Part shown: positions 3,578-18,083 of the stretch, in pieces
Layout: each line of letters begins with the position of its first letter
Numbering within the stretch: position 1 is the stretch's first letter
Origin: Pseudomonadota bacterium
Lineage (GTDB): Bacteria > Pseudomonadota > Gammaproteobacteria > GCA-001735895
Length of the DNA: 37,097 nt
Direction of reading: 5' to 3'
NCBI GenBank assembly: GCA_022563685.1
Contig: JADFMY010000017.1
Location: forward strand, 1-37,097
The notes under the pieces: model-generated
What the model was told of the DNA's origin: nothing
The model's input: only the letters and a program-made list of their open reading frames with translations
Database searches by the model: none
Translations under genes and position numbers: made by a program

Positions 3578-4579
3578 CTATATTTTGACAGCTTGCGCTA
3601 TCTCGCGCACCAGCCCCGGCCCCTGAAAAATCAATCCACTGTACAACTGTACCAGGCTGGCGCCGAGTTTCAGCCGCATTTGTGCTTCTCCGGCCGACAT
3701 TATCCCGCCAACCGAGATGATTGGAATTTCACCCTGTAAGGCCTGGTGAAAAGCGCTTAATACATTTCTCGATTTCTGGCAAAGCGGTTCTCCACTGAGG
3801 CCACCTGCCTCAGCCGCCAAAGCGTGGTCGTTGACCAGCGAATGGTCCAGCGTGGTATTTGTGGCGATGAGTCCATCGACTCGATGTTTGATCATTAGCT
3901 CGGCAATCACCGGTATTGCCCTGTCGTCGAGATCGGGAGCGACTTTCAATGCGATGGGTCGATCGAACTGGTGATCATCCTGTAATGCCTTTCGGGTTTC
4001 GTTGATGCCATGCAACAGGGAATCTAGCGCCTCTTCGCTTTGTAACTGGCGCAACCCTGGCGTATTCGGTGAAGATACGTTGAGGCAGATATAGTCGGCC
4101 TCGGCATAAACTTTTTTCAGCGCCAGGCGGTAATCGTCTAACGCGTTTTCTACCGGCGTATCCAGATTTTTCCCGATGTTGATACCCAGTACATAAGGCC
4201 TCGGGCGCGGGGGTATTCGACTCAAAAGGTAATCCACCCCTTTATTGTTAAACCCCATACGATTGATGATCGCGCGATGGCGGATTAGCCTGAAAAGCCG
4301 GGGTTTGGGGTTTCCATCCTGTGGTTTTGGCGTCACGGTGCCGACTTCGATGAAGCCGAAACCCAGTCTGGCGAGACCAGGCAGATAGTCGCCATTTTTA
4401 TCTAGCCCGGCAGCAAGGCCGACTGGATTGGGAAATTCGATACCCATCACCTTAGTTGGGTTATCAACTCGGGCTTCTGGAACCAGAGCCGGTAGCTCGT
4501 TTAAAAGCTGCAGGCTAACCTCATGCGCCAACTCGGGGTCGACCGAAAAAAGAACAGGTTTAAGCAGGGAATATAACAT
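3578..4579 (-). CDS. pyrD: dihydroorotate dehydrogenase (quinone)
   Basis: A 333-aa class 2 dihydroorotate dehydrogenase, which oxidises dihydroorotate to orotate in pyrimidine synthesis using FMN and passes electrons to quinone at the inner membrane. The N-terminal amphipathic region (MLYSLLKPVLFSVDPELAHE) is the class 2 membrane-docking part. NPVGLAAGLDKNG and NVSSPNTPGLR (catalytic serine about residue 170) are diagnostic, and VSVGGIMSAGEA near the C-terminus is the FMN phosphate site. The start codon overlaps the stop of the upstream glycosyltransferase gene by one base (TAATG), so it is the last gene of the arsS operon. Confidence 0.97.
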   Translation of the reverse strand: MLYSLLKPVLFSVDPELAHEVSLQLLNELPALVPEARVDNPTKVMGIEFPNPVGLAAGLDKNGDYLPGLARLGFGFIEVGTVTPKPQDGNPKPRLFRLIRHRAIINRMGFNNKGVDYLLSRIPPRPRPYVLGINIGKNLDTPVENALDDYRLALKKVYAEADYICLNVSSPNTPGLRQLQSEEALDSLLHGINETRKALQDDHQFDRPIALKVAPDLDDRAIPVIAELMIKHRVDGLIATNTTLDHSLVNDHALAAEAGGLSGEPLCQKSRNVLSAFHQALQGEIPIISVGGIMSAGEAQMRLKLGASLVQLYSGLIFQGPGLVREIAQAVKI

Positions 4580-5187
4580 TAGTAATTATCGACTAGTGCC
4601 AGCAATTCAGGGTAGTAGCTGAGGTCAGCCAGCGTATCAATATCTCTGACGGTTTCAAGCATCGATATTTGATAACCCAGGGATTGTGCATTATTCACGG
4701 TTTGCTTTAATACTTCAGCGCCGCCCCATTTAACGTCTTTAAAGAGTTGCGCATCGATTGTGCGGCAACCGATCAGGGCATAGCCGCCATCGTAGGCAGG
4801 CGCCAGCACGATATCGTGGGTCGATAAGGCATCGAAGGCCTGTTGCAAATGAATACGAGTCAAATCCAGGCAATCGGAGCCTGTCAAGACGATCTTGCCG
4901 TCAGCGAGTGTGTTTTCACGAAGTTGACTGTCGATTGCCTGCAACATGCGAGACCCTAAATTGGCACCCTGTTGCAGGTGGCAGGGCTCCCGATTAAACA
5001 GGGGATCGTTAGTGTCTTCGCTGAGCCATATCTGGTACCCATAACCAGATTCTCTGACCAGGCCCAGGGTATGGCGCAGGCAGTATCGGTAAACTTGCGT
5101 CGCCTTCTGTTCGCCGATGTCGGCAATCAGACGCGTTTTAACCTTGCCTTCTACCGGGGGTTTGGCAAATATTTGAATCAAGGCCAT
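4579..5187 (-). CDS. TIGR04282-type (DUF2064) glycosyltransferase, arsenosugar-associated
   Basis: A 202-aa nucleotidyltransferase/glycosyltransferase-A fold protein. It opens with LIQIFAKPPVEGKVKTRL, the nucleotide-binding start typical of DUF2064/CofC-like proteins. VLTGSDCLDLT and LAPAYDGGYALIG are the family's acidic and glycine-rich motifs. TIGR04282 members are commonly encoded beside arsS and a TIGR04283 glycosyltransferase, as here, and are annotated as arsenosugar biosynthesis glycosyltransferases. The exact reaction is not firmly established. It lies 8 bp after the TIGR04283 gene and overlaps pyrD by one base. Confidence 0.88.
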   Translation of the reverse strand: MALIQIFAKPPVEGKVKTRLIADIGEQKATQVYRYCLRHTLGLVRESGYGYQIWLSEDTNDPLFNREPCHLQQGANLGSRMLQAIDSQLRENTLADGKIVLTGSDCLDLTRIHLQQAFDALSTHDIVLAPAYDGGYALIGCRTIDAQLFKDVKWGGAEVLKQTVNNAQSLGYQISMLETVRDIDTLADLSYYPELLALVDNY

Positions 5188-5195
5188 GGTGCGGA

Positions 5196-5894
5196 TTATC
5201 GATATTGTTGTGGGTAGTAAATTCGGTGCAGGCGTTCAGGACTGATTCCGATCCAAAAACCGAACCTGAGCCACCACATCTGGAGTACTGTTTTTATGAT
5301 ACCGTTTTTGTCCCATCGGCGGCTGGAAGTTAGCACCGGACTTTTCGCGATAAAGGGTCGGGATTTACGCCGTGCAAGTTTGGTGATCGCTATATCCTCC
5401 ATGATCAATATATCAGGATAGCCAGGTAAACTGTCGAAAAATGATTTACGAAAATAAAGGCCCTGATCCCCAGTTGCCACTTTGCTTATTCTGGAACGAA
5501 TATTGATCGCGGTTTCGATAATGCGCAACAGCCAGTGGGTGCCGTCCAGCCTGATCGGGAAAAATCCCCAATTGCTCATACGCATCACCTCGTTATACCA
5601 TTGTTCGGGCAATTCGCTGTCGGCATGTAAAAATAAAAGCAAGTCGCCGTTCGCTTCATGGCTCGCAGTATTCATTTGCGCTGCCCTGCCATTCTTGCTG
5701 GATATCACTCGACAGGGAAATTGATGTGCGATCTCGGTGGTATTGTCAGTGCTGCCACCGTCGCAAACAATGACCTCTATAGCGGGTTTATCAGCTAAGC
5801 TCTGAAACAGCTTGTGCAGGGTGTGGCCCAGTCGCGAGCTTTCGTTGTATACCGGGATAACGATACTAACCGATATCCCGCCGGCTTCAGTCAA
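5196..5894 (-). CDS. TIGR04283 family arsenosugar biosynthesis glycosyltransferase
   Basis: A family 2 (GT-A) glycosyltransferase of about 232 aa. SIVIPVYNESSRL is the N-terminal nucleotide-binding strand, VIVCDGGSTDNT holds the first acidic motif and FLHADSELP is the DxD-like metal site. The C-terminus carries a hydrophobic WWLRFGFWIGI segment. The start is uncertain. The open frame extends to 5978, but that would overlap arsS by 92 bp and add residues outside the family. TTG at 5894 has GGTGGAG just upstream and overlaps the arsS stop by 8 bp; GTG at 5903 is an alternative. The operon position supports a role in finishing an arsenosugar made by ArsS. Confidence 0.85.
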   Translation of the reverse strand: MTEAGGISVSIVIPVYNESSRLGHTLHKLFQSLADKPAIEVIVCDGGSTDNTTEIAHQFPCRVISSKNGRAAQMNTASHEANGDLLLFLHADSELPEQWYNEVMRMSNWGFFPIRLDGTHWLLRIIETAINIRSRISKVATGDQGLYFRKSFFDSLPGYPDILIMEDIAITKLARRKSRPFIAKSPVLTSSRRWDKNGIIKTVLQMWWLRFGFWIGISPERLHRIYYPQQYR

Positions 5895-6852
5895 GCGCTC
5901 CACCGCAGCTACTACCTTGCCCCGCGGTACAACCGTAGCAGTGATCCGCAGTTCGTACTGGAATACTCGAGAAGCCATTCACGAAAATGTCGCGAATATG
6001 CAACGGTTCGCCGGAATTCTGCGAGGTGATATTCATGTTGAGCATCTGGTTAAAATCACAATCGTAAATGTAACCCTGCCAGTCGATACTCAACAGGTTT
6101 TTGCACATCAAACCTGTCAGGTTGGCTGCGTTAAAGGAATTTTTCAGCAAGTCCATATAATTCTCAAACTCGCCCTTCGAAATCAAAGTACTGCCAAAGC
6201 GCGCGATGGGCATGTTGGTGATGGTAAACAACTGGTTGAATACGATGCCAAAATGCTCGTGCAGATAGCTTTTATACTCGGTTTCTAGATCTTTTTGAGG
6301 CGGCGGTAAATAGGGGCCTGTGGGATTGTACACCAGGGTGATAGTCAGCTTGCTGCCATTTTGCCCATACCCAAGCTGGTTGAGCATACGCAGTGCCTTG
6401 ATACTTTTCTGGTATACGCCTTTACCTCTTTGCCCATCGACATTCTGTTCCAGGTAACAGGGTAGGGAAGCGACAATCTGTACCTCGTTATCGGCCAGAA
6501 ACTGCGCCATATTCTCGAATCCGGGTTCCAATAGAATAGTTAAATTACAGCGGTCGATGACTTTTACATCGAAGTTTCGGGCTTCCAGGACAATCTCCTG
6601 GAACGCCGGATTCATCTCCGGGGCGCCCCCGGTCAAGTCCAGCGTATGGACAGTCGGTATTTCGAGAATGGGCAACAGGTATTCAATGGTTTCTCGGCTC
6701 ATCAATTCCTTGCGATTTGGTCCGGCGGCCACATGACAATGCAGACAGGACTGATTGCACAAATAACCGAGGTTGACTTGAAGTATTTCGAGCGTATTGC
6801 GCGTGATGGGCGGAAAATCGGTATTCTTCAATAATGGCCAGGTATCTTTCAT
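5887..6852 (-). CDS. arsS: arsenosugar biosynthesis radical SAM protein ArsS
   Basis: A 321-aa radical SAM enzyme. The [4Fe-4S] motif CNQSCLHC (CxxxCxxC) follows LQVNLGYL, the family signature. The C-terminus has the extra cysteines of the DUF3641 part (CYGCTAGQGSSCGGALD), and the length fits the ArsS family. Known family role: transfer of the 5'-deoxyadenosyl group to methylated arsenic to make dimethylarsinoyl deoxyadenosine. No arsM arsenite methyltransferase is in this window, so the methylated substrate must come from elsewhere. First gene of a four-gene operon with two glycosyltransferases and pyrD. No clear Shine-Dalgarno precedes the ATG. Confidence 0.93.
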   Translation of the reverse strand: MKDTWPLLKNTDFPPITRNTLEILQVNLGYLCNQSCLHCHVAAGPNRKELMSRETIEYLLPILEIPTVHTLDLTGGAPEMNPAFQEIVLEARNFDVKVIDRCNLTILLEPGFENMAQFLADNEVQIVASLPCYLEQNVDGQRGKGVYQKSIKALRMLNQLGYGQNGSKLTITLVYNPTGPYLPPPQKDLETEYKSYLHEHFGIVFNQLFTITNMPIARFGSTLISKGEFENYMDLLKNSFNAANLTGLMCKNLLSIDWQGYIYDCDFNQMLNMNITSQNSGEPLHIRDIFVNGFSSIPVRTADHCYGCTAGQGSSCGGALD

Positions 6853-7325
6853 ATTGCGAGGTATGGGTTCGGTTAATCAGCAATAGACCCGGAATATAAC
6901 ACAGAGTTCCTGTCACCCAGACAGCCAGGTCCGGCAGTCTCCTGGCACCTCACAGAAATCATGGATTGCGACCTTATTAATTGCGATTCCATGCGTTAAC
7001 AGCATTTTTTCGGATCAAAATCATTCAATATCGCGCTATTTTGAGGCAGAATGGTTCAATTCTGAGTTGGTCGGTATATTATAGAACCAAAAAAATGCCA
7101 CGATTAGGTATGGAAAGACTGGTGCGAAGTGTTGGATCATCTGTATTTACCCTTACAATTACTCAAAAATCCCGATTATCGTCCGTTTTTAAGAGCTATA
7201 AAACGGCGTATGCTTTATTTTAGAAAAATTATTGTATTTTTATAGGTTTATCGTGACTAAATTAGAATCTGGTTTAAGTATACTGCTATAGTCAAAGGTA
7301 TGAAATACAGGAATCTAGCCACAAT
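6853..7325. other. 473-bp intergenic region between divergent operons
   Basis: No convincing gene is seen. It must contain the promoters for arsS (minus) and the PP2C fusion gene (plus). The right half is AT-rich (about 7200-7290), with TATACT and TATAGT hexamers near 7280-7291 but no clear -35 partner. Two stem-forming repeats stand out: GCCAGG/CCTGGC around 6924-6946, and CCGTTTT/AAAACGG at 7183-7206 with a 10-nt loop. An 80-codon open frame at 6981-7223 has no recognisable similarity and is not called. Confidence 0.6.
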
Positions 7326-9200
7326 ATGAGAGTAGAGTTCGACATCGCAAGCGATCAGATCGATGGCGCCAGAGACTATCAGGAAGACGCCTACATGGTT
7401 AATCAGATGGGTGAAACTGAAAATGGCGATATCTGCTCGTTGGTGATTATGGCGGACGGCATGGGTGGCCATGCCGCCGGTAATGTCGCCAGCAATATGG
7501 TGATCGCAACCTTTAATAAAACCTTTCAGTCCAGCTTTCCAACCAAAAAAATTGCCGAGTCCTTAACCGAAAGTCTGAATCGTTCCAACGATCAAATCCG
7601 TGCTTCTGTCAAGGAGACGCCGGCATTAAGAGGGATGGGTTGCACCATGGTTTCGGCTTACCTGGAGGGCGACAAACTCTATTGGGTCAGTGTCGGCGAT
7701 AGTCATATTTACCTGATTCGCGATCGAGAGCTGATTAAACAAAATGCCGATCACAGCTATGGCGCTTATCTCGATATGATGAAGGAACAGGGCATGGATA
7801 TCTCCGAAAGGGACGGCATGTCGAGAAATATGCTGATGAGCGCTATGACCGGCGAAGAAATCAGCAGCATCGACGTATCCGAAGTACCGATCAAGGTTCG
7901 CCCCGGTGACAGGGTTATCGTTGCGAGCGATGGCCTCGATACCCTCGGCGCGGGCGCAATCATTCAATACTCCTCCTGGTCTGCGACGGCGAAAGAATGC
8001 GTTTATGCACTGTTAAAGGCGGTTGAGGATGCCAATAAAATCAATCAGGATAACACCACGCTGATTATCATCGACATCAAGGAACGCAAGCAGGAGGAGG
8101 CCGCAGCACAACCGGATGCAGAATCCGAGAAACCGGTTAGCCGGATAGCGGATGTCCGGGTTAAAGAGCAACCCAGCCCTCCAAGAGAACCCCGGTCCTA
8201 CAAAGGACTGGTCTGGCTCGTGATTCTTGGGTTACTGGGCGCCGGCGGATTCTTTGCCTGGGAAAAAGGACTGCTTCAGCAGGTACAGGAGCAGGTTCAG
8301 GAAATGGTGGAAGCACAACTGGAAACGCCCGAAGTGGAACCCATAACGGCTAGCGAAATTGAATCGGAACAACAGGCTGCAGAGCTGGCCGGGCAACAAG
8401 CAGAGCAGGCAGAGCCGCTTCAGGCCGAACCGGCACCCGAACCAGAGCTGGAACCTCAATTTGTCGATAAGGCCGATCCGTTCAGGGATAAGCTTAAATC
8501 GGGTGGTCGAGGGCCGTTGATGGTTCAGGTGCCATCGGGTACTTTTCGTATGGGTGGGGCTTCCGGTATTATTTCAGCGGACGAGGTGCCCCGTCATAAA
8601 GTTAATATAGAGTCGATCATGGTATCGGTGTACGAAGTGACCTATGCAGAATACGATTTGTTCGCCAAATCTAGCAACCGCAAGCTACCCGACAGTAGTG
8701 GTTGGGATCGGAAAACCCATCCGGTGAATAATATCTCCTGGGATGATGCGCTGCGCTATACCAAATGGTTGAGTAAGCAAACCGGTAAGATATATCGGCT
8801 TTTATCCGAGTCAGAATGGGAATACGTGGCGCGGGCTGGAACGACTTCGTCCTTCTGGTGGGGAACCTCTGCAGGGACGAGTAACGCGCATTGCTTCGAT
8901 TGCAAAAGCGATTATAACACCAGCAAACCAGCAAAAGTGGGCACCTATAAACCCAATACGTTCGGCCTGTACGATACTGCGGGTAACCTGTATGAATGGG
9001 TGCATGATTGTTACCATCGAAATTATAAAGAAGCGCCCACCGATGGGTCGGTTTGGGAAGGTGGCGACTGTGAAGTCCGGGTAGTCAGAGGAGGCGCTTT
9101 CCGCAGCCCGGCTGACTCGATGCGCGTAGAGAATAGAGAAAAATTCCCAAGCAAACGGGGGCAGTACAATGTCGGGTTCCGCCTGGCGCGAGATTTGTGA
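7326..9200 (+). CDS. PP2C phosphatase - TM - SUMF1-domain fusion protein
   Basis: A 624-aa protein in three parts. Residues 1-250 are a PP2C/Stp1-type Ser/Thr phosphatase with the metal-site motifs intact: DYQEDAY, MADGMGGHAAG, VGDSH, ASDGLDT and QDNTT. A single membrane helix follows (about 294-313, GLVWLVILGLLGAGGFFAW), then an acidic, Glu/Gln/Ala/Pro-rich linker (about 315-390). Residues about 395-622 are a SUMF1 (formylglycine-generating enzyme-like) fold: VPSGTFRMGG, EVTYAEY, PVNNISWDDA, LLSESEWEYVARAG, RGGAF and VGFRLARD. The cytoplasmic phosphatase would be tethered to a periplasmic SUMF1 module. The two catalytic cysteines of true formylglycine-generating enzymes are absent from the RGGAFRSPADSMRVENRE region, so that domain is probably a binding module. 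Confidence 0.88.
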   Translation: MRVEFDIASDQIDGARDYQEDAYMVNQMGETENGDICSLVIMADGMGGHAAGNVASNMVIATFNKTFQSSFPTKKIAESLTESLNRSNDQIRASVKETPALRGMGCTMVSAYLEGDKLYWVSVGDSHIYLIRDRELIKQNADHSYGAYLDMMKEQGMDISERDGMSRNMLMSAMTGEEISSIDVSEVPIKVRPGDRVIVASDGLDTLGAGAIIQYSSWSATAKECVYALLKAVEDANKINQDNTTLIIIDIKERKQEEAAAQPDAESEKPVSRIADVRVKEQPSPPREPRSYKGLVWLVILGLLGAGGFFAWEKGLLQQVQEQVQEMVEAQLETPEVEPITASEIESEQQAAELAGQQAEQAEPLQAEPAPEPELEPQFVDKADPFRDKLKSGGRGPLMVQVPSGTFRMGGASGIISADEVPRHKVNIESIMVSVYEVTYAEYDLFAKSSNRKLPDSSGWDRKTHPVNNISWDDALRYTKWLSKQTGKIYRLLSESEWEYVARAGTTSSFWWGTSAGTSNAHCFDCKSDYNTSKPAKVGTYKPNTFGLYDTAGNLYEWVHDCYHRNYKEAPTDGSVWEGGDCEVRVVRGGAFRSPADSMRVENREKFPSKRGQYNVGFRLARDL

Positions 9201-9934: not shown

Positions 9935-12900
9935 CTAGGCTACTCCAATGATGCATGCCAGTATTCGCTTATCTGTCTGTTTTTGTACAGGAAAAGATCT
10001 GAAATGTTCAATTATCTCGGGCTGTAATGTGTCCTTAGCTAATATTAACTTTTTGCGTATGTCTTTAAGTAGCAACGGTTTGATTCTTGGCTGCTTCAGT
10101 TCTTCATACCAAACCGGTCTGATGATATCTAACCATCTTGCGGCAACCTCGTCCCAGTCTGGTTGATGATCCGGGTTTTCCATTTTTAGCATTTTCAATA
10201 TTCGGTCAAAATGATCGACTTCATCCTGGTTAGAGGCTTTTGCAGCGGTCTTTATGTAGGATCCCAGAACCAATTGCATTTCTTTTAAAGCCCGTTGTTT
10301 TTTACGTGATAATAAGCTGCGTTCCATTTTAGCGACTAAGTTGATAAATGTGCGTAGTACAGTTCCCGCTTTTTCATCCAGGGGCATATCTTCAATAACC
10401 TGGGTTAACGCCTCTCTTAATTTGTCAACAACTGCATCAAGTTCGGTGATTGGTTCTGCATTGTAGTTTGGTAGAAAAATCCAGCGAGGGGCTCCCAGCA
10501 TACCTGCGGTTAAACAAAAAAATGCCCAGGGCTTTTCAGCTCTGACCAAACTTACTCTGGAGAGAACGCGTACTTTTACTCGCCGATAGGCCTCATAAAT
10601 ATCGGTCGCAACTAGCGAATTTTCACCGTGTACCAGTTTACGGACATTTTCAAAAGCATCGCTGATACCATCCCAATTGCTAATTTCTGTTTTCTCGAAT
10701 TCCCGGATCATTTCCTTTGTAGAGACAACCGATACTTTAGATTGCATGCTGTCTGGCAATGGAAGGTTTGAACCGAGTAAATTTTCGACTGTTTCAAACC
10801 TTTCGATAAACCTGTCATCAGACGATAGCGCGAACTCCTCCGCGTCTTTTGGCCACCACGCCTCGATTCGTTTATGCGGGCTATCCATACGATCAATACG
10901 CCCAACACGTTGTTCGGCAATGCGCACAACACTGGGCATATCCAGATGAACCACCGAAGATGCCTGCTGTAAGTTCACACCTTCGGAGAGGCTATCGGAG
11001 CATAGCCCTATGACATTGGATAATTCTGACCCCGGTTTAAAAGCTTCGAGAAATTTCCCCCGATTAGTCGACTTATCGCCTGTAGCGATCATAGTCTTCG
11101 GGGCTAAACTATGTTTTGAAATATGACGGTTGATTTCAGCTAATGTTATTGGGCGACTATCAAAGGCCAGAACCAGCTTGTGTTTATTAAGCAAGTCGAC
11201 AAGAAAACTGCCTTTTCTGGCTTCACGATGATTGCTGAGCTTCTTGGTTAATCTGAATATACCCTCATAATATTTGCCGATCATGAGTACATTGTTTTTT
11301 ATGTGCAACTGGATCTGACAACCAGTCCGGTACTTCAACATTTAGCTTGATATTAGGTGGCTTGCCAGATATTTCATATAACTTGCCAATGATATTGCCC
11401 GTAGGGTTGGATTTGCTAAAGTTTTTCAATTTGAAATATTTGACTGCTGCATCGGTTCCGACGATATGTTCTGCGAGTGCCAACCTGGATGATCTTAACG
11501 ATGCCATCACCATGTAGCGAGACAGGTGACTGGCAGACACCAGTCTTCCGGAAAGATAATTTTCTTCTGATTTTCCCTGCTTGCGCAAGATTTCGGGCAT
11601 TTCCAGCGTTTTTGTAAAGTGAGTAACCCCGGTGAGTTGTTCGGCCAGTTTCCTGATTTCACCGGCAATCAGGCGATCACTACTCGGTTCATTTAATTCG
11701 TAGATTTCTGGTTTATGTTTGGGGAACCGGCATTTTTCTCCTCGATAGTCGGTGTACTTATCGGGTTCCCGGTCTATCAGTGCATTGAGCATTCGCTTTG
11801 TCCGACGTACCGTGAATCTTCTGATCTCAGTTCTCAACTGCTTAGCCTCAAGTTCGGTGAAACTATGTTTAATCGACTGCTTGCCTAAAAGTTTTTTAAA
11901 CATATTTAAGGTGTCATCCTCAAGATTATCCGCACCTAACATATCAACGATGCGAAGCAAATCGACCACGCTTCGGTTGATTGGTGTGGCGGTAAAGAGC
12001 AATACGTGATCCGCCATATTTCTCAAAATTTCCTTGGTACGCTTAGATTTAACATTCAGAAAATTATGACCCTCATCAATACACAGTACCTGCGCGCGTC
12101 TTAGCGCTGAAAGCATTAAATCGTGATGCTGACTCTTAGAGTGGCTTAGCACGCCATGTGAATATATATCCAGGTCGGTCACGCTGTTGTCAGATTCGTG
12201 TTTCCAGTTGGATTCAACCGAGGGCGGGCATACCATTAAAGCCTTGCCGTATTTCAACCGACCCGATCGTAAAATCTGATCGACAACAGCGTTGACTAAA
12301 TGAACACCCATACGGGTTTTGCCCGAACCTGTCGCATCGGCGATCAGAACGCTATCCTGTCTTGATAAAATATACAAAGCCTGTGCAATGCCCTGCTTTT
12401 GCGCGGGCCATAATTTGCTTTCGGAAGATAATTGCGACTCACGTATGTAACGTGCGGCCCAGTCACCTTCCAGTAATTCTGCACAGGCCCTTGCCAGGGC
12501 TTCCTGCCAACTGACAAGCTGTAGCAGCATATCAAGTAGTTTGATCAACTCGTCGTTGTAATCCCGCCCAAGTTGCCAATAATTTTCCGCGATATGTACG
12601 GTCTCATCATAACGGGCCTTATCCCGGTTTCGGGTGAAACGAACATTGGCTTCGAGGTTTGTTTTGAGACCTGGAATAGTGAAATTACTTGAACCGAGCG
12701 TAGCGGCCTGATCGCCGATAAATATTTTTGCGTGTAGTCGCCGATTACCACCGACATAGCGCGATAAAACGCTACGTTTTTGTAAGCGCTGCTTGCACAA
12801 CACCAGTTTGGCGCTATTGCGTAATGAAATTCCCTGTTCCATCCAGTAGGCTTGCATCTCTTCGGTAAAATCCTGCCCGTGCAAGCGATAATTATCGCGG

Positions 12901-13184
12901 TGACTGGCAAAAGGTTCAAACCCCAGCGCTACTCGCACTACACTTTTATCATCAGTCTCAGCGATAAAGTCGATAAGTTGATTAAGTCCCGCATAGCCGG
13001 TAATAATCAGTGGCGATTGTGTTTCCAGCAAGTCTCGCCAGATCACATCAGATGAAGTTTGAGTGTCGAGGTTGAGCGGAAAGCGTCTGGCATCCGGCCA
13101 TTGTAGTTCCTGTAATTCCGAGCGAGTTTCAACCGACTCGCTAAATAAATCATAGGTGTACTGCCTGGGTCGTTCCCTCACCAT
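9935..13184 (-). pseudogene. PLD-nuclease / SNF2 helicase, frameshifted
   Basis: Two overlapping reading frames (13184-11265 and 11341-9935) together encode a protein that would be about 1082 aa if one base were removed. Residues 1-210 are a phospholipase D-like domain with HAK...GSSN (about 151-167). The helicase core follows: Walker A ATGSGKT (284-290), DEGH (370-373) and TATP (398-401). The second frame carries the SNF2 C-terminal motifs EGVNLQQASSVVHLDMPS and QRVGRIDRMDS, plus a ~300-residue tail of unknown fold. The break lies at a run of six A residues (plus-strand T run at 11295-11300): five A would join HK-NNVLMIGKYYEG in frame. Decay is most likely; recoding or a sequencing error are alternatives. 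It follows the mod pseudogene by 5 bp. Confidence 0.82.
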
Positions 13185-13189
13185 GGATT

Positions 13190-14894
13190 TTACGGTATTT
13201 CTGTCAGGATGACTTCTTCACCCAGCATATCGATGATTTTTATTGCAACCGTAGACTTGCCAGGCGTCGCGTCGAATTCGTATTCGCCTATGACCAAATC
13301 CTGTTTTCGTGCGGGAATATCGCTGAGGGCGACATTGAATATTTCGCCATCGTAATCGAGGTCAATCATGATGCAGTCAACCACGGCGCGCCAATCATCG
13401 ATTTGAGCGCGGAAGGAACAGGCCATCGTCCATATTCAGGCGCTGAACAATGCTGGGTGAATAGACATCGTTTATCGTGACTTTCAGTTTATTCTTATGC
13501 CGCTTTATGCTCACGCTGGCGACTAGCGGTTCGTGTTTGATGAAGCCACCGTATTTGCGGTCGCTGCGCAGTTCGATGATGTTGATCTTATTGATCGGGC
13601 GGGTACGGTTGTAGTCCTCTACCCAGGCGCGTGCTTTCAGTTCGAGACCCAGGCAAACGATTGTGATATCGCGTTCTTCCTCGGGGCGGCGCTCAATCTC
13701 CTTGCGCAAATCATCGAGATCGAGCGGCGATAGCGGGTGGTTGAACGGGATGATCTTGACCAGTGGCGTGTTTTCGTCTTCGACCAGCTTAGATTGCCGG
13801 TCTTCATCGATAGCCTTCGCCTGCTCCAGCATGACCTTGTGCAGGCGTTTCGCGGTGGTCTGGATTGCGCCCTTGTTGATATCACAACCGATCCAGCGGC
13901 GGCCTAGTTTTTGGGCGGAAATGCATGTCGTTCCAGAACCAACGAAACAGTCAAGTATCAAATCACCCTCGTTTGACAGAGAAGTAATCAATCGGCCTAT
14001 TAGCTCTAGCGGCTTTTGTGTTGGATAATCTGTGTGCTCACTACTTCTTGTATGTTCACGTCTTATTTCCCATACATCTCGCATTGGCACACCTAAAGAT
14101 ACTTCCTCAGTCTCTCTCTTTACAAAACTACCATCCTCAGTTTCGACCGTGGTTAGACGCTTTCCACCGTAGTCACTTAAAGTTCTTTCAGAAGATTGTT
14201 CATAAAGTTTGTTAAAGGTATGTGAATTATCGTTCGATTTTGTATACCAGAACAAATTATCATGCATCGATTGAAATGAGGGTGTATTTGTTGGCCATCT
14301 CCTATAAAACCATATTAATTCGTTCTTGAAATGTTTCTCAGAACCCATTACTTCATCAAGCAGCATTCTCAGAAAATGAGATCGTTTGTTATCACAGTGC
14401 AATACGATACTCCCTTCGTTTGAGAGCAACTCTCTCAATAGCATCAACCGCTCATACATAAACTGCAAGTAGTTATCGTTGGCCCAGATATCTTCGTACT
14501 GAATCTGTTCGCCCAGGGTATATTCCTCACCATCCACTTTGGTCGTACCGTTAGTACCGCGCAGTTGCACCTTGCGCACATAATCGGCGCCGGAATCAAA
14601 CGGTGGGTCGATGTATATCAACTTTACCTTGCCCCGAAAACCGTTAGCCAGCAGGTGCGCGAGCACGTCTTTATTATCGCCGTGGAACAACAGGCCACCC
14701 GCTTCGAACTTGTCAGGCCAGTCGCTTTGATATGCCTCGCAGTTTTCAAATGCCCGCGTCGCGGCGCTGAAGCTTTCGACAAGCTGCGCCGGGTAGGCTT
14801 TGACCGTGCTCAGTGGCCGCTTGCCCACCCAGGTGAGCATCGGCCGTCCCTTGGCCTTGCGGATTTTAACGTTCCTGTGTTTGTTATCGTCCAT
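13190..14894 (-). pseudogene. mod: type III-like Mod DNA methyltransferase, frameshifted near 3' end
   Basis: The first frame (14894-13395, 499 aa) is an amino-methyltransferase of the beta order. Motif IV IYIDPPFDSGADY (DPPF at 96-99) precedes the SAM motif DCFVGSGTT (315-323), as in type III Mod proteins that methylate adenine N6 or cytosine N4. A second frame (13426-13190) continues with FRAQIDDWRAVVDCIMID and ends with KIIDMLGEEV, the expected C-terminal part of this family. Removing one base within GGAAGGAA (plus-strand 13411-13418) fuses them into about 567 aa. The catalytic motifs lie before the break, so partial activity cannot be excluded. It starts 6 bp after the antitoxin stop. Confidence 0.82.
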
Positions 14895-14900
14895 GTTGTT

Positions 14901-15983
14901 TTATAAAGCCCACTTATATTGTTCTCTGTGACTATGGCAATGATGCGCAATATGCCCATCGTGCTGTAACCGGCCAGTGACGACGCCGGGTGCAATACCG
15001 ATGGATTTGGCAAAGTTGTGTATCGATTGAGCAGTAAAAATTCCCGTTTGGGTAAATGCCGTATAGGCGCTTATGGGTATCAGGGTATTACTGGCAAAAT
15101 GATCGGCTTCCTGCTCCTGTACCCGCGTTTCAGCATCGTCGCTACCATCTTCAAGAAAGATACGGCGCTTGTCGTGTAGCAGGATATGCGCAATTTCATG
15201 GAACAGGCTGAACCAGAAAATATCCGCCCAACTTCCTCGGATGGTCATCATCAAAACTGCCTTATCTGGGTGAATCCAGAAGGTTGCACCATTGGTGTAG
15301 GTTTTGGGTAAATGCGGTAATAGCACCAGTGCGACGCCGACATCGGCCAGGCGTTTGAGTAATTTCTGCTGGAAGCTTTCTGGACTCGTTACCGAGAGCT
15401 GGCGAAATTCGGGTATTAAAGCTTTCAGGGCTTTTTTATCAAATGGACGGGTTGGTATCTGCTCCGCTTCCAGTGCGCCTGCGCGTAACCAGGCGGCCAG
15501 TGTTTCGTGAGACAGGTTTTTGTGCCTGCTTTTTCTAAATGCGGGCGCATAGGAACGCACATCGGGTAAATTCGAGAGCGACGCGACGCCGAAGAATCGG
15601 CGCAGTTCGCGTACTTTTTCTATCGCTTTACGCGTTTTCCTGACCCATCCGAGCCTGGCCATTTCAGCGTAAGGGAAGCAACCGACATCGGCTGCTTCCG
15701 CCTCGATGTGCTGCTCTGCCTGCGCTCTTGCACGGATTAACTGGTAATCGGCTTCCAGCCCGGTCCATATATGAGCGGGTACGCCCAGAACTTCTTCGAG
15801 CTGCAATGCGGTATCGGGCGTAATCGCCTTGATACCCTTGACGATTTCGCTGATGGCCTGTACGGGCCTGCCCATGCGGCGCGCGAGGTCAGCCTGGTTC
15901 AGCCCAAGTTCTGCGCTCGCTTCGAGCAGGTATTCACCGGGCGGTATCGCCAGATCAGAATAATGCTTGTTATTAGTCTCCAT
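14901..15983 (-). CDS. HigA-like antitoxin with ImmA/IrrE metallopeptidase domain
   Basis: A 360-aa protein with an N-terminal HigA-type helix-turn-helix (about residues 12-75: GLNQADLARRMGRPVQAISEIV) and a C-terminal ImmA/IrrE zinc peptidase domain. HEIAH sits at 262-266, and EQEADHFA about 25 residues later supplies the likely third ligand. Such proteins act as antitoxins and autorepressors; the peptidase half may sense or cleave a partner regulator. It overlaps the toxin gene by 11 bp and precedes mod by 6 bp, so it is embedded in the restriction-modification operon. Intact, unlike its restriction-modification neighbours. Confidence 0.9.
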   Translation of the reverse strand: METNNKHYSDLAIPPGEYLLEASAELGLNQADLARRMGRPVQAISEIVKGIKAITPDTALQLEEVLGVPAHIWTGLEADYQLIRARAQAEQHIEAEAADVGCFPYAEMARLGWVRKTRKAIEKVRELRRFFGVASLSNLPDVRSYAPAFRKSRHKNLSHETLAAWLRAGALEAEQIPTRPFDKKALKALIPEFRQLSVTSPESFQQKLLKRLADVGVALVLLPHLPKTYTNGATFWIHPDKAVLMMTIRGSWADIFWFSLFHEIAHILLHDKRRIFLEDGSDDAETRVQEQEADHFASNTLIPISAYTAFTQTGIFTAQSIHNFAKSIGIAPGVVTGRLQHDGHIAHHCHSHREQYKWAL

Positions 15984-16275
15984 AATGCTTACTCACTTCC
16001 TCTATCATTACAATTTCCAACTGCTCACCGGTTAGTTTAAATATCAACCGGTAGTAGCCGGACAGCTTTATCGCATATTCGCCTTTCCTTGCGCCTTTAA
16101 GCGCATGGCAACGCAGGCCGGGTAAAGACATTAATTGTTTCAGACTCTGTGAGTGCTGAATGATATTAATGCGTTGTATATATTTTCGTGCAATTTGTTC
16201 GCCGAATTTTTTGCTGGCTTTGCGATGTTCCTTGAAACAGATTTCCAACTGCCGGGTTTTGAATTTGACGATCAA
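15973..16275 (-). CDS. HigB/RelE-type toxin (killer protein)
   Basis: A 100-aa protein of the RelE/HigB mRNA-interferase fold. LPGLRCHALKGARKGEYAIKLSG and YRLIFKL are the strands typical of HigB killer proteins. Family members cleave mRNA on the ribosome and are neutralised by a HigA antitoxin, which is encoded immediately downstream with an 11-bp overlap. The start is TTG at 16275, preceded by AAGGA at 6 nt spacing; a nearby ATG is out of frame. A good promoter with an operator-like palindrome lies just upstream. Confidence 0.88.
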   Translation of the reverse strand: MIVKFKTRQLEICFKEHRKASKKFGEQIARKYIQRINIIQHSQSLKQLMSLPGLRCHALKGARKGEYAIKLSGYYRLIFKLTGEQLEIVMIEEVSKHYGD

Positions 16276-16302
16276 TGGCCATCCTTGCGTTTCAAATGAT
16301 AT

Positions 16303-16332
16303 AGTATATATTAATTCACCCTAAAGGTGAAT
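16303..16332 (-). promoter_or_regulatory. toxin-antitoxin promoter with operator palindrome
   Basis: Read on the minus strand, TTCACC (16331-16326) and TATACT (16308-16303) form a sigma70-type promoter with a 17-bp spacer. Transcription would begin about 20 nt before the TTG start of the toxin. The inverted repeat ATTCACC-5 nt-GGTGAAT (16314-16332) covers the -35 box and part of the spacer. That is the expected place for autorepression by the HigA-like protein. The binding itself is inferred. Confidence 0.65.
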
Positions 16333-16394
16333 AGTATTATCAATTTGGTGGTCACTTTGCCGACTCTTCATCTAATTGAGTCAGGACGTTGATC

Positions 16395-16416
16395 GGTCGA
16401 ATGAATTCGACCCTAC
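16395..16416. repeat. REP-like palindrome, single copy
   Basis: GGTCGAAT-GA-ATTCGACC followed by CTAC. This is the same unit as in the paired repeat at 20668-20730, in the opposite orientation to its left arm. Its end supplies the TAG stop of the Res remnant (16413-16415). It could form a stable hairpin on either strand. Confidence 0.75.
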
Positions 16417-17677
16417 GCGCCAGTGATGAATTTTCTAGTTTCATCCAGGGCATTATCGGCGAGTGAATCATCTGCGAAAATGACCTGATAATGCAATACG
16501 TCTGGATTGAGTTCCTCCCAGCGTTTGAGTGCCACGGCCTTGCGGCCTTCTGTTGTCACGGGGGCATCGCCTTTTTTGAACCGCTTTAAGTCTTCTGTGA
16601 CTGCTGCATTGTATTGATCCGATTTAATTTCGACGATGAGATGCTTGCCATCCTTGCGGCGAATGACAAAGTCCGGGGTATATCGGTGCCAGCGGTTGTC
16701 TTCTCCGAGGTATTCGGCAAAAAGTTCTGTTTTGCCCGGGTCGCTAAGGCCACCGGTAAACCATATTCCATCGATTTCACTGGCCTGTTGTTTGAGTAGA
16801 TTGAGTACTCGCTCCAGGTATTCGGCTTCAGACTGAGAGTCGAAGTTATAGCCTTCATAGTGGAAGCTGAGCTCACGGGAGATTTCATCGTCAGGCAACT
16901 CCAGTGCAGTTTTATATAAGTGCGCGCGGTTTTTAGCAAAGCTGATGCGTGCTGTGTACACGGGTTGCCCTTTCACGTAATGTTTTTCGAAACCTTCTGT
17001 CTTGATTAATGCCAGTGCAACGTCAATTTCTTCCCAATACTCCTCATAGTCACTTCGTTGCTCTTCGATTTGATGCCCTAACTCGGGCAGATGGTGCGCA
17101 GGTATTAGTGAGTTATCGCTATAAATCATTTTTAGGCTTTCCAGAATTTCACTCGCCTCTAGATGGTAATTGGCCGAAAGTTCAGCCACTGCGCCATCGC
17201 AAATTCGGTGGCTACGATGGTTGCCATCAGGATGGTCTTGCCAGCACCCATCGCCAGTGCCAGTATGTAGCTTGGGTAATCCAGTGTCAGGGTTTCACGC
17301 AGACTTTCGAGATGATTGCGCCGCACGAAGGCATTATCAGTACGGATTTTCTGGTAAAGTGCATCCCAGCTTTCATCCTCAAGATAATCCCTGATTTCAT
17401 CCGATGTCAGGCCCATGGCTGTGCGTCTTTCGCGTGCCATTGGGAAGAGTCGTTCGTAAAGCTGAGGTACTTTTGGGGTATTTTCTACGAGCCTTAAATA
17501 CCAATATATTTCTAATGCTTTAAATTGTGCACTGCGCAAATAACGATACATGCCATCATTAGTATTTTCGGTGGCATACTCGAGAATTTCTCTAATCGAA
17601 GGAAAGTCCTGGCAAGAATAGTTTGATTCTCTCCATTCGGTAACTTTTTTTGTCAGGGCTTCGTGCAGATATGTCAT
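16413..17677 (-). pseudogene. res: type III-like restriction subunit (Res) with internal deletion
   Basis: The N-terminal piece (from ATG 17677, or GTG 17698) reads MTYLHEALTKKV and reaches the Walker A motif LAMGAGKTILMA, then leaves the family after ATEFAMA. The C-terminal piece, in another frame from about 17189, starts AELSANYHLEASEILESL. It keeps the PD-(D/E)xK nuclease signature PDFVIRRKDGKHLIVEIKSD. All helicase motifs between Walker A and the nuclease are missing, so roughly half of a usual 850-900-aa Res appears deleted, with a frame change at the junction near 17185-17195. The gene must be inactive as a motor. It is the expected partner of the downstream mod. Confidence 0.85.
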
Positions 17678-17755
17678 TTTCCGATATCGTTTTGACACCT
17701 GCGGCTATTATTTCTGTGCCAATTGTGTTTGAAACCACACAGGTTTGCAAACACG

Positions 17756-18064
17756 CTAGGGTAGCTGCCCCATCACCATACAATCGGACAAATCGAGCAG
17801 CATGTGGATCACGAGTCCCAGGCCTACGATCCTGGTCTTGTGATGCAATAGCATCAGGCCATAGATGCCGATTGGAATAAACTGGTGCAGGGGGTGAAAA
17901 CCGATACTGCATCGATTCGGGTCGTACAGAGGGTTGGCCAGTAAATGATCCAGATCTACCAACATAGTAGACATGAGTACCAGGCCTGTTTTCCAGGCCG
18001 TTTTTGGAAAAAACAGGATTGCTACCAGCCAGAGTATTACCAGATGCAGGGCGATATGTAGCAA
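17756..18064 (-). CDS. DUF6122 family small membrane protein
   Basis: A 102-aa hydrophobic protein with three or more membrane segments and the conserved stretch LVDLDHLLANPLYDPNRCSIGFHPLH, plus a C-terminal HMLLDLSDC. This matches the DUF6122 pattern, related in style to YdjM-type membrane proteins with Asp/His residues that might bind metal. Function is unknown. The start appears to be TTG at 18064, because the family begins MLHIALH; no ATG is available nearby. It follows the hydrolase gene by 19 bp on the same strand. Confidence 0.75.
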   Translation of the reverse strand: MLHIALHLVILWLVAILFFPKTAWKTGLVLMSTMLVDLDHLLANPLYDPNRCSIGFHPLHQFIPIGIYGLMLLHHKTRIVGLGLVIHMLLDLSDCMVMGQLP

Positions 18065-18083
18065 ACCGTTTAAAACCCGTCAA

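Follow-up and report, generated by a model that had tools for sequence, protein, structure and literature searches.

Gene and domain organization

The window, by which we mean the whole stretch of DNA analysed (37,097 nucleotides of a gammaproteobacterial contig), carries on its plus strand, at 7326..9200, an open reading frame with an ATG start which encodes a 624-aa protein of the type PP2C, membrane helix and SUMF1/PvdO-type domain. The PP2C (PPM) phosphatase domain takes up residues 1-252 (7326..8081) and is followed, all on the same strand, by a variable, presumably cytoplasmic linker (residues 253-292, 8082..8201) which is K/R-rich immediately ahead of a predicted single membrane helix (residues 293-313, 8202..8264), by an acidic and poorly conserved linker predicted to be extracytoplasmic (residues 314-386, 8265..8483), and by a domain of the SUMF1/FGE fold, PvdO type (residues 387-624, 8484..9197). 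In Pfam, the first domain matched PP2C_2 and PP2C at residues 6-205 (42 and 38 bits, above the cut-offs), and the last matched PF03781 (FGE-sulfatase) at residues 397-622 (168 bits, cut-off 23.3). Orthologues align over the whole length with 63-83% identity, and M1 is kept in 32 of them. Since full-length orthologues occur in dozens of genomes, a chance match of the domains is excluded, a fusion or assembly artefact is equally ruled out, and the PP2C-SUMF1 protein is confirmed as real and conserved. The mean pairwise identity is higher in the PP2C domain (86%) than in the SUMF1 domain (74%), and lowest in the linkers (about 40%). A structure model of the full-length protein was poor (pLDDT 63).

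The conserved neighbours of the gene are NUDIX, HAD, ArsS-cluster and HrpA genes, and no T6SS cluster with PpkA and Fha alongside was found at PP2C-SUMF1 loci. In the window, the ArsS cluster lies at 3578-6852 and includes an ArsS-type radical SAM protein (453 bits, cut-off 300), a family 2 glycosyltransferase, DUF2064 and PyrD, an arrangement which is syntenic in 27-28 relatives. At 6853-7325 the window is missing the NUDIX-like gene by which PP2C-SUMF1 is immediately preceded in 29 relatives, this label being derived from the sequence of the gene and not from a family search.

Phosphatase domain and membrane topology

An earlier note on this DNA, made from the sequence alone, had described the phosphatase motifs as intact, and this was borne out. 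The metal-binding Asp and the DGMGG motif of the PP2C/PPM family are present, and the metal- and phosphate-binding residues, assigned by alignment with PstP as R16, D44, G45, D125, D202 and D242, show no variation among PP2C-SUMF1 proteins, whether in the 32 close or in the 32 diverse ones. Against the Stp1/IreP equivalog of NCBIfam (NF033484) the score was 132.6 bits, below the cut-off of 230.

The strongest hydrophobic segment is one and the same helix (residues ~292-313) in 32/32 close orthologues, and a charge count in these shows that K and R are usually more numerous before the helix than after it. Hydropathy and charge bias predict an N-in topology, with PP2C inside and SUMF1 outside, which agrees with the single helix proposed in the earlier note and does not place both domains on the same side. 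The acidic linker that it had recognized was also found, with 18 D/E and 2 K/R in 73 residues. The protein is likely to sit in the inner membrane of the bacterium and to expose a folded domain on the outer side.

This predicted layout recalls PstP of Mycobacterium tuberculosis, in which a single membrane helix joins an N-terminal PP2C to an extracytoplasmic part, and which serves many kinases. Its extracytoplasmic part is small, with no SUMF1 domain, and its gene shares an operon with PknA/PknB. PstP (PDB 1txo) has the same PP2C catalytic residues (phmmer E 5e-22). Unlike PstP, the protein of the window has a SUMF1 domain of 238 aa, and no kinase gene lies beside its own.

Cysteines and fold of the outer domain

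By Pfam score and by fold, the outer domain belongs to the SUMF1/FGE-sulfatase superfamily. FGE itself has two catalytic cysteines, a redox-active, copper-binding pair, while alignment with FGE revealed a Cys at either position in 0/58 PP2C- and cNMP-type relatives; in the protein of the window the matching stretch (9096..9125, plus strand) reads AFRSPADSMR. FGE activity of the outer domain was thus rejected, because both catalytic cysteines are absent, and the loss of the formylglycine cysteines claimed in the earlier note stood, none being recovered on alignment. Nevertheless, its description of the domain as cysteine-less was true of this pair only, since all 58 domains keep four further cysteines, C523, C526, C562 and C582. 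C562 and C582 (9009..9071, plus strand) are common to PvdO and probably form a disulfide, whereas C523 and C526 make up a CxxC (8892..8903, plus strand) which is found neither in PvdO nor in FGE.

The oxidation state of this putatively periplasmic CxxC might control the phosphatase, which would be a specific form of the explanation favoured below. Its strict conservation in PP2C- and cNMP-type domains, together with the rhodanese domain (sulfur chemistry) of the cNMP relatives, is in line with such a thiol sensor. We nevertheless hold it to be quite improbable, given that C523 and C526 may simply form a structural disulfide or a metal site, and that kinases with other partners also carry CxxC-bearing SUMF1 domains.

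A model of the SUMF1 domain, with 51 sequences as input (pLDDT 91.7, pTM 0.91), found its best solved fold match in PvdO of Pseudomonas aeruginosa (PDB 5hha; Z 33.1, rmsd 2.4, 240 residues), followed by Treponema variable protein 1 and then by FGE (Z about 28). PvdO was also the top sequence match (2e-39), and like the outer domain it is devoid of the FGE cysteines; unlike it, PvdO is free-standing, takes part in pyoverdine synthesis and has no phosphatase attached. As this nearest solved relative is listed in NCBIfam as dihydropyoverdine dehydrogenase, the outer domain could be imagined as still catalytic, carrying out a PvdO-like oxidation or another non-FGE reaction which the PP2C regulates or accompanies. 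Such a bifunctional enzyme is very hard to reconcile with the score against the PvdO equivalog NF051459 (161.8 bits, cut-off 500), with the fact that no conserved biosynthetic gene cluster adjoins, and with the swapping of the domain among signalling proteins, and we give it little credence.

SUMF1 domains related to the PP2C-SUMF1 outer domain are also encoded in at least 205 stretches of a viral contig collection (L165-L243); matches with internal stops were left out of the alignments. DGR-diversified SUMF1/C-type-lectin variable proteins were considered, and no reverse transcriptase was found among the annotated neighbours.

The outer domain on other proteins

The earlier note had proposed a survey of domain architectures, which found the outer domain joined to kinases and to cNMP-rhodanese proteins as well as to PP2C. 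At about 27 loci, proteins of roughly 1,260-1,980 aa carry the same SUMF1 domain together with cNMP-binding domains, a rhodanese, a long stretch resembling a coiled coil and a helix, and L090 unites cNMP, rhodanese, PP2C and SUMF1 within one protein. The long cNMP-cNMP-rhodanese-coiled-coil-TM-SUMF1 family (L092, L093, L095, L096, L098, L099, L100, L115, L116, L123, L145-L160) often has genes for a PfkB-like kinase and a Rieske-like protein adjoining. Ser/Thr kinases bearing SUMF1, with the kinase as cytoplasmic output, occur in the genus of the window (L105, L106, L107) and beyond it, with L110, L161, L163 and L164 as further examples, their SUMF1 domains falling outside the main PP2C-type clade; at L110 and L164 a PP2C gene directly adjoins the SUMF1-kinase gene. 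Judged by sequence, then, the outer domain is a shuffled, putatively extracytoplasmic module, which is what one would expect if it serves as an input domain, and since it is exchanged among kinases, PP2C and cNMP-rhodanese proteins, an input role is supported, favouring the sensor that the earlier note had suggested.

The main rival to the input module is an anchor or scaffold, in which a structural SUMF1 domain would sense nothing and would dock a PP2C of constitutive activity to a pole or an envelope complex. SUMF1-fold proteins can indeed be structural, as in the PorK/GldK ring proteins, which match the SUMF1 model at Z 27, and the linkers are long and variable. The sharing of the domain with kinases and cNMP-rhodanese proteins is compatible with an anchor but not predicted by it alone, and no conserved envelope-complex gene was found near the PP2C-SUMF1 loci. 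We consider the anchor unlikely, and retain the input module as the better account.

The PP2C and cNMP types are not one locus, a candidate ruled out by their different neighbourhoods (HrpA in the first, PfkB-like/Rieske-like in the second). As separate genes, both types were found together in 0 sampled genomes; nevertheless, the case for mutual exclusion is weak, with p 0.05 over all genomes and p 0.0002 among genomes with any hit, both values uncorrected for kinship.

Distribution and ancestry

The architecture occurs in nearly every member of the genus and of the family. The protein is absent from two (G014, G019) of the 31 members of the genus searched, but present, whole or as contig-broken pieces, in the others and in 10/10 members of the two sister genera. 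PP2C and SUMF1 were found in one frame in about 40 of 369 sampled gammaproteobacterial genomes, spread over 17 families and including two larger cNMP fusions (G127, G250), while in other classes, among the matches listed for 398 genomes drawn from the phylum, none spanned both domains. PP2C-SUMF1 proteins thus form a widespread, apparently undescribed family.

In the SUMF1 tree, 30/31 PP2C-type domains make up one group (support 91/65) which adjoins the cNMP type; PvdO and most kinase types fall outside. At L144 and L090 the joining to PP2C seems to be a separate event; the PP2C tree agrees, though long branches weaken it. At 10/31 PP2C-type loci, hrpA lies in the neighbourhood of the gene, usually divergent from it, which points to old vertical inheritance.

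Kinases and phosphatases in carrier genomes

In the 34 PP2C-SUMF1 genomes the median number of Ser/Thr kinase hits is 10 (3-28), compared with a median of 3 in carriers of cNMP-SUMF1 and also of 3 in genomes with neither, in a set of 77 genomes in which weak hits were counted and those with neither were hand-picked. Family means of kinase number per Mb gave p 3e-5 against the cNMP-SUMF1 carriers and 1e-5 against genomes with neither, kinship being only partly corrected. The association of PP2C-SUMF1 with large kinase sets is best taken as a lead, albeit a strong one. In addition, the carriers have 2-5 PP2Cs each, so that, with about 10 kinases per genome, PP2C-SUMF1 probably opposes several of them.

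The genome of the window has about eight good Ser/Thr kinases and three PP2Cs. The two other PP2Cs adjoin kinases, one with a CHASE2-like kinase and FHA (C62) and one with a kinase (C116), but the PP2C-SUMF1 gene does not. The earlier note had reported no partner kinase in the window and advised searching the genome for a kinase with the same outer domain. No SUMF1-bearing kinase was found in either; in fact, the genome has one SUMF1 domain only, so that the kinase sought is absent from it, in an assembly which is 92% complete. The dedicated partner that the note implied was not sustained, since the protein tracks a large kinase set and no single neighbouring kinase. Neither a conserved kinase nor a T6SS neighbour was found across 39 close loci or 31 PP2C-type loci, and a kinase lies within 4 kb of the PP2C-SUMF1 gene only in family f112 (L126, L129). 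The cNMP-kinase of the genome was rejected as a single partner, as it has clear full-length orthologues only inside its own family.

The closest free-standing PP2C found among plasmids is encoded on a Leisingera plasmid (L251:6631-12927), beside an FHA protein, two substrate-binding proteins and a Ser/Thr kinase.

Proposed function

The explanation that we consider the most probable is a receptor-type PP2C of the inner membrane, with the outer SUMF1 domain as its input, opposing several kinases. In this mechanism, the N-terminal PP2C would dephosphorylate Ser/Thr-phosphorylated proteins in the cytoplasm, while one helix and the long acidic linker would hold the PvdO-type SUMF1 domain in the periplasm. 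This domain, its formylglycine chemistry lost, would serve as the input, where a ligand, an envelope partner or a thiol state may alter the activity or the membrane position of the PP2C, and the phosphatase would act against several kinases rather than one. A shared, receptor-type off-switch with PstP-like topology is what fits best. Sensing, gating and breadth of substrates are what we infer here, and long disordered linkers are not obvious transmitters of conformation and would also suit an anchor.

A more specific reading, which is possible though we put it forward tentatively, is that the periplasmic PvdO-type module with its invariant CxxC would respond to a signal from the envelope or to a redox signal, and would so determine one common off-rate for an enlarged set of Ser/Thr kinases. 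The protein would then represent an undescribed class of bacterial receptor phosphatase in many Gammaproteobacteria, with a module common to receptor kinases and cNMP-rhodanese proteins.

A related logic may be seen in the type VI secretion system of P. aeruginosa, where TagR is SUMF1-like. In the TagQRST-PpkA-PppA pathway, periplasmic TagR controls a kinase of the membrane, and a PP2C counteracts that kinase (PMC6082577). That system consists of separate proteins, is T6SS-linked and has an input acting on the kinase, whereas in the PP2C-SUMF1 family the phosphatase carries its putative input in the same chain, and no T6SS gene was noticed beside the members. PknS of Xanthomonas was discarded as a related system, its outer domain being TPR-rich. 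PP2Cs, membrane PP2Cs such as PstP, and sensors or regulators of the SUMF1 fold are each already known, while their combination is apparently undescribed, a search mostly without subscription journals having found no description of it.

In bacteria, the inputs to Ser/Thr phosphorylation known so far mostly target the kinases. Since this family occurs in bacteria with many protein kinases, outside conditions may control the switching-off of kinase signals. A phosphatase with its own extracytoplasmic domain, conserved in 17 gammaproteobacterial families and associated with large kinase sets, would make signal-controlled dephosphorylation directly testable, and the SUMF1 fold without FGE cysteines would be defined as a general signalling input module.

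Putative defence island

Downstream of the gene, a putative defence island (9935-18083) has been inserted between the HAD gene and those genes which come next after it in the nearest relative (L042). It encodes a SNF2/PLD helicase, a DNA methyltransferase and an HTH-M78 protein which matches PD-Lambda-2_B (4e-45). The helicase is read in two overlapping frames on the minus strand, 9935-11341 and 11265-13184, with an N-terminal PLD and SNF2 part followed by a Helicase_C part, a split which is probably due to a frameshift or a sequencing error.
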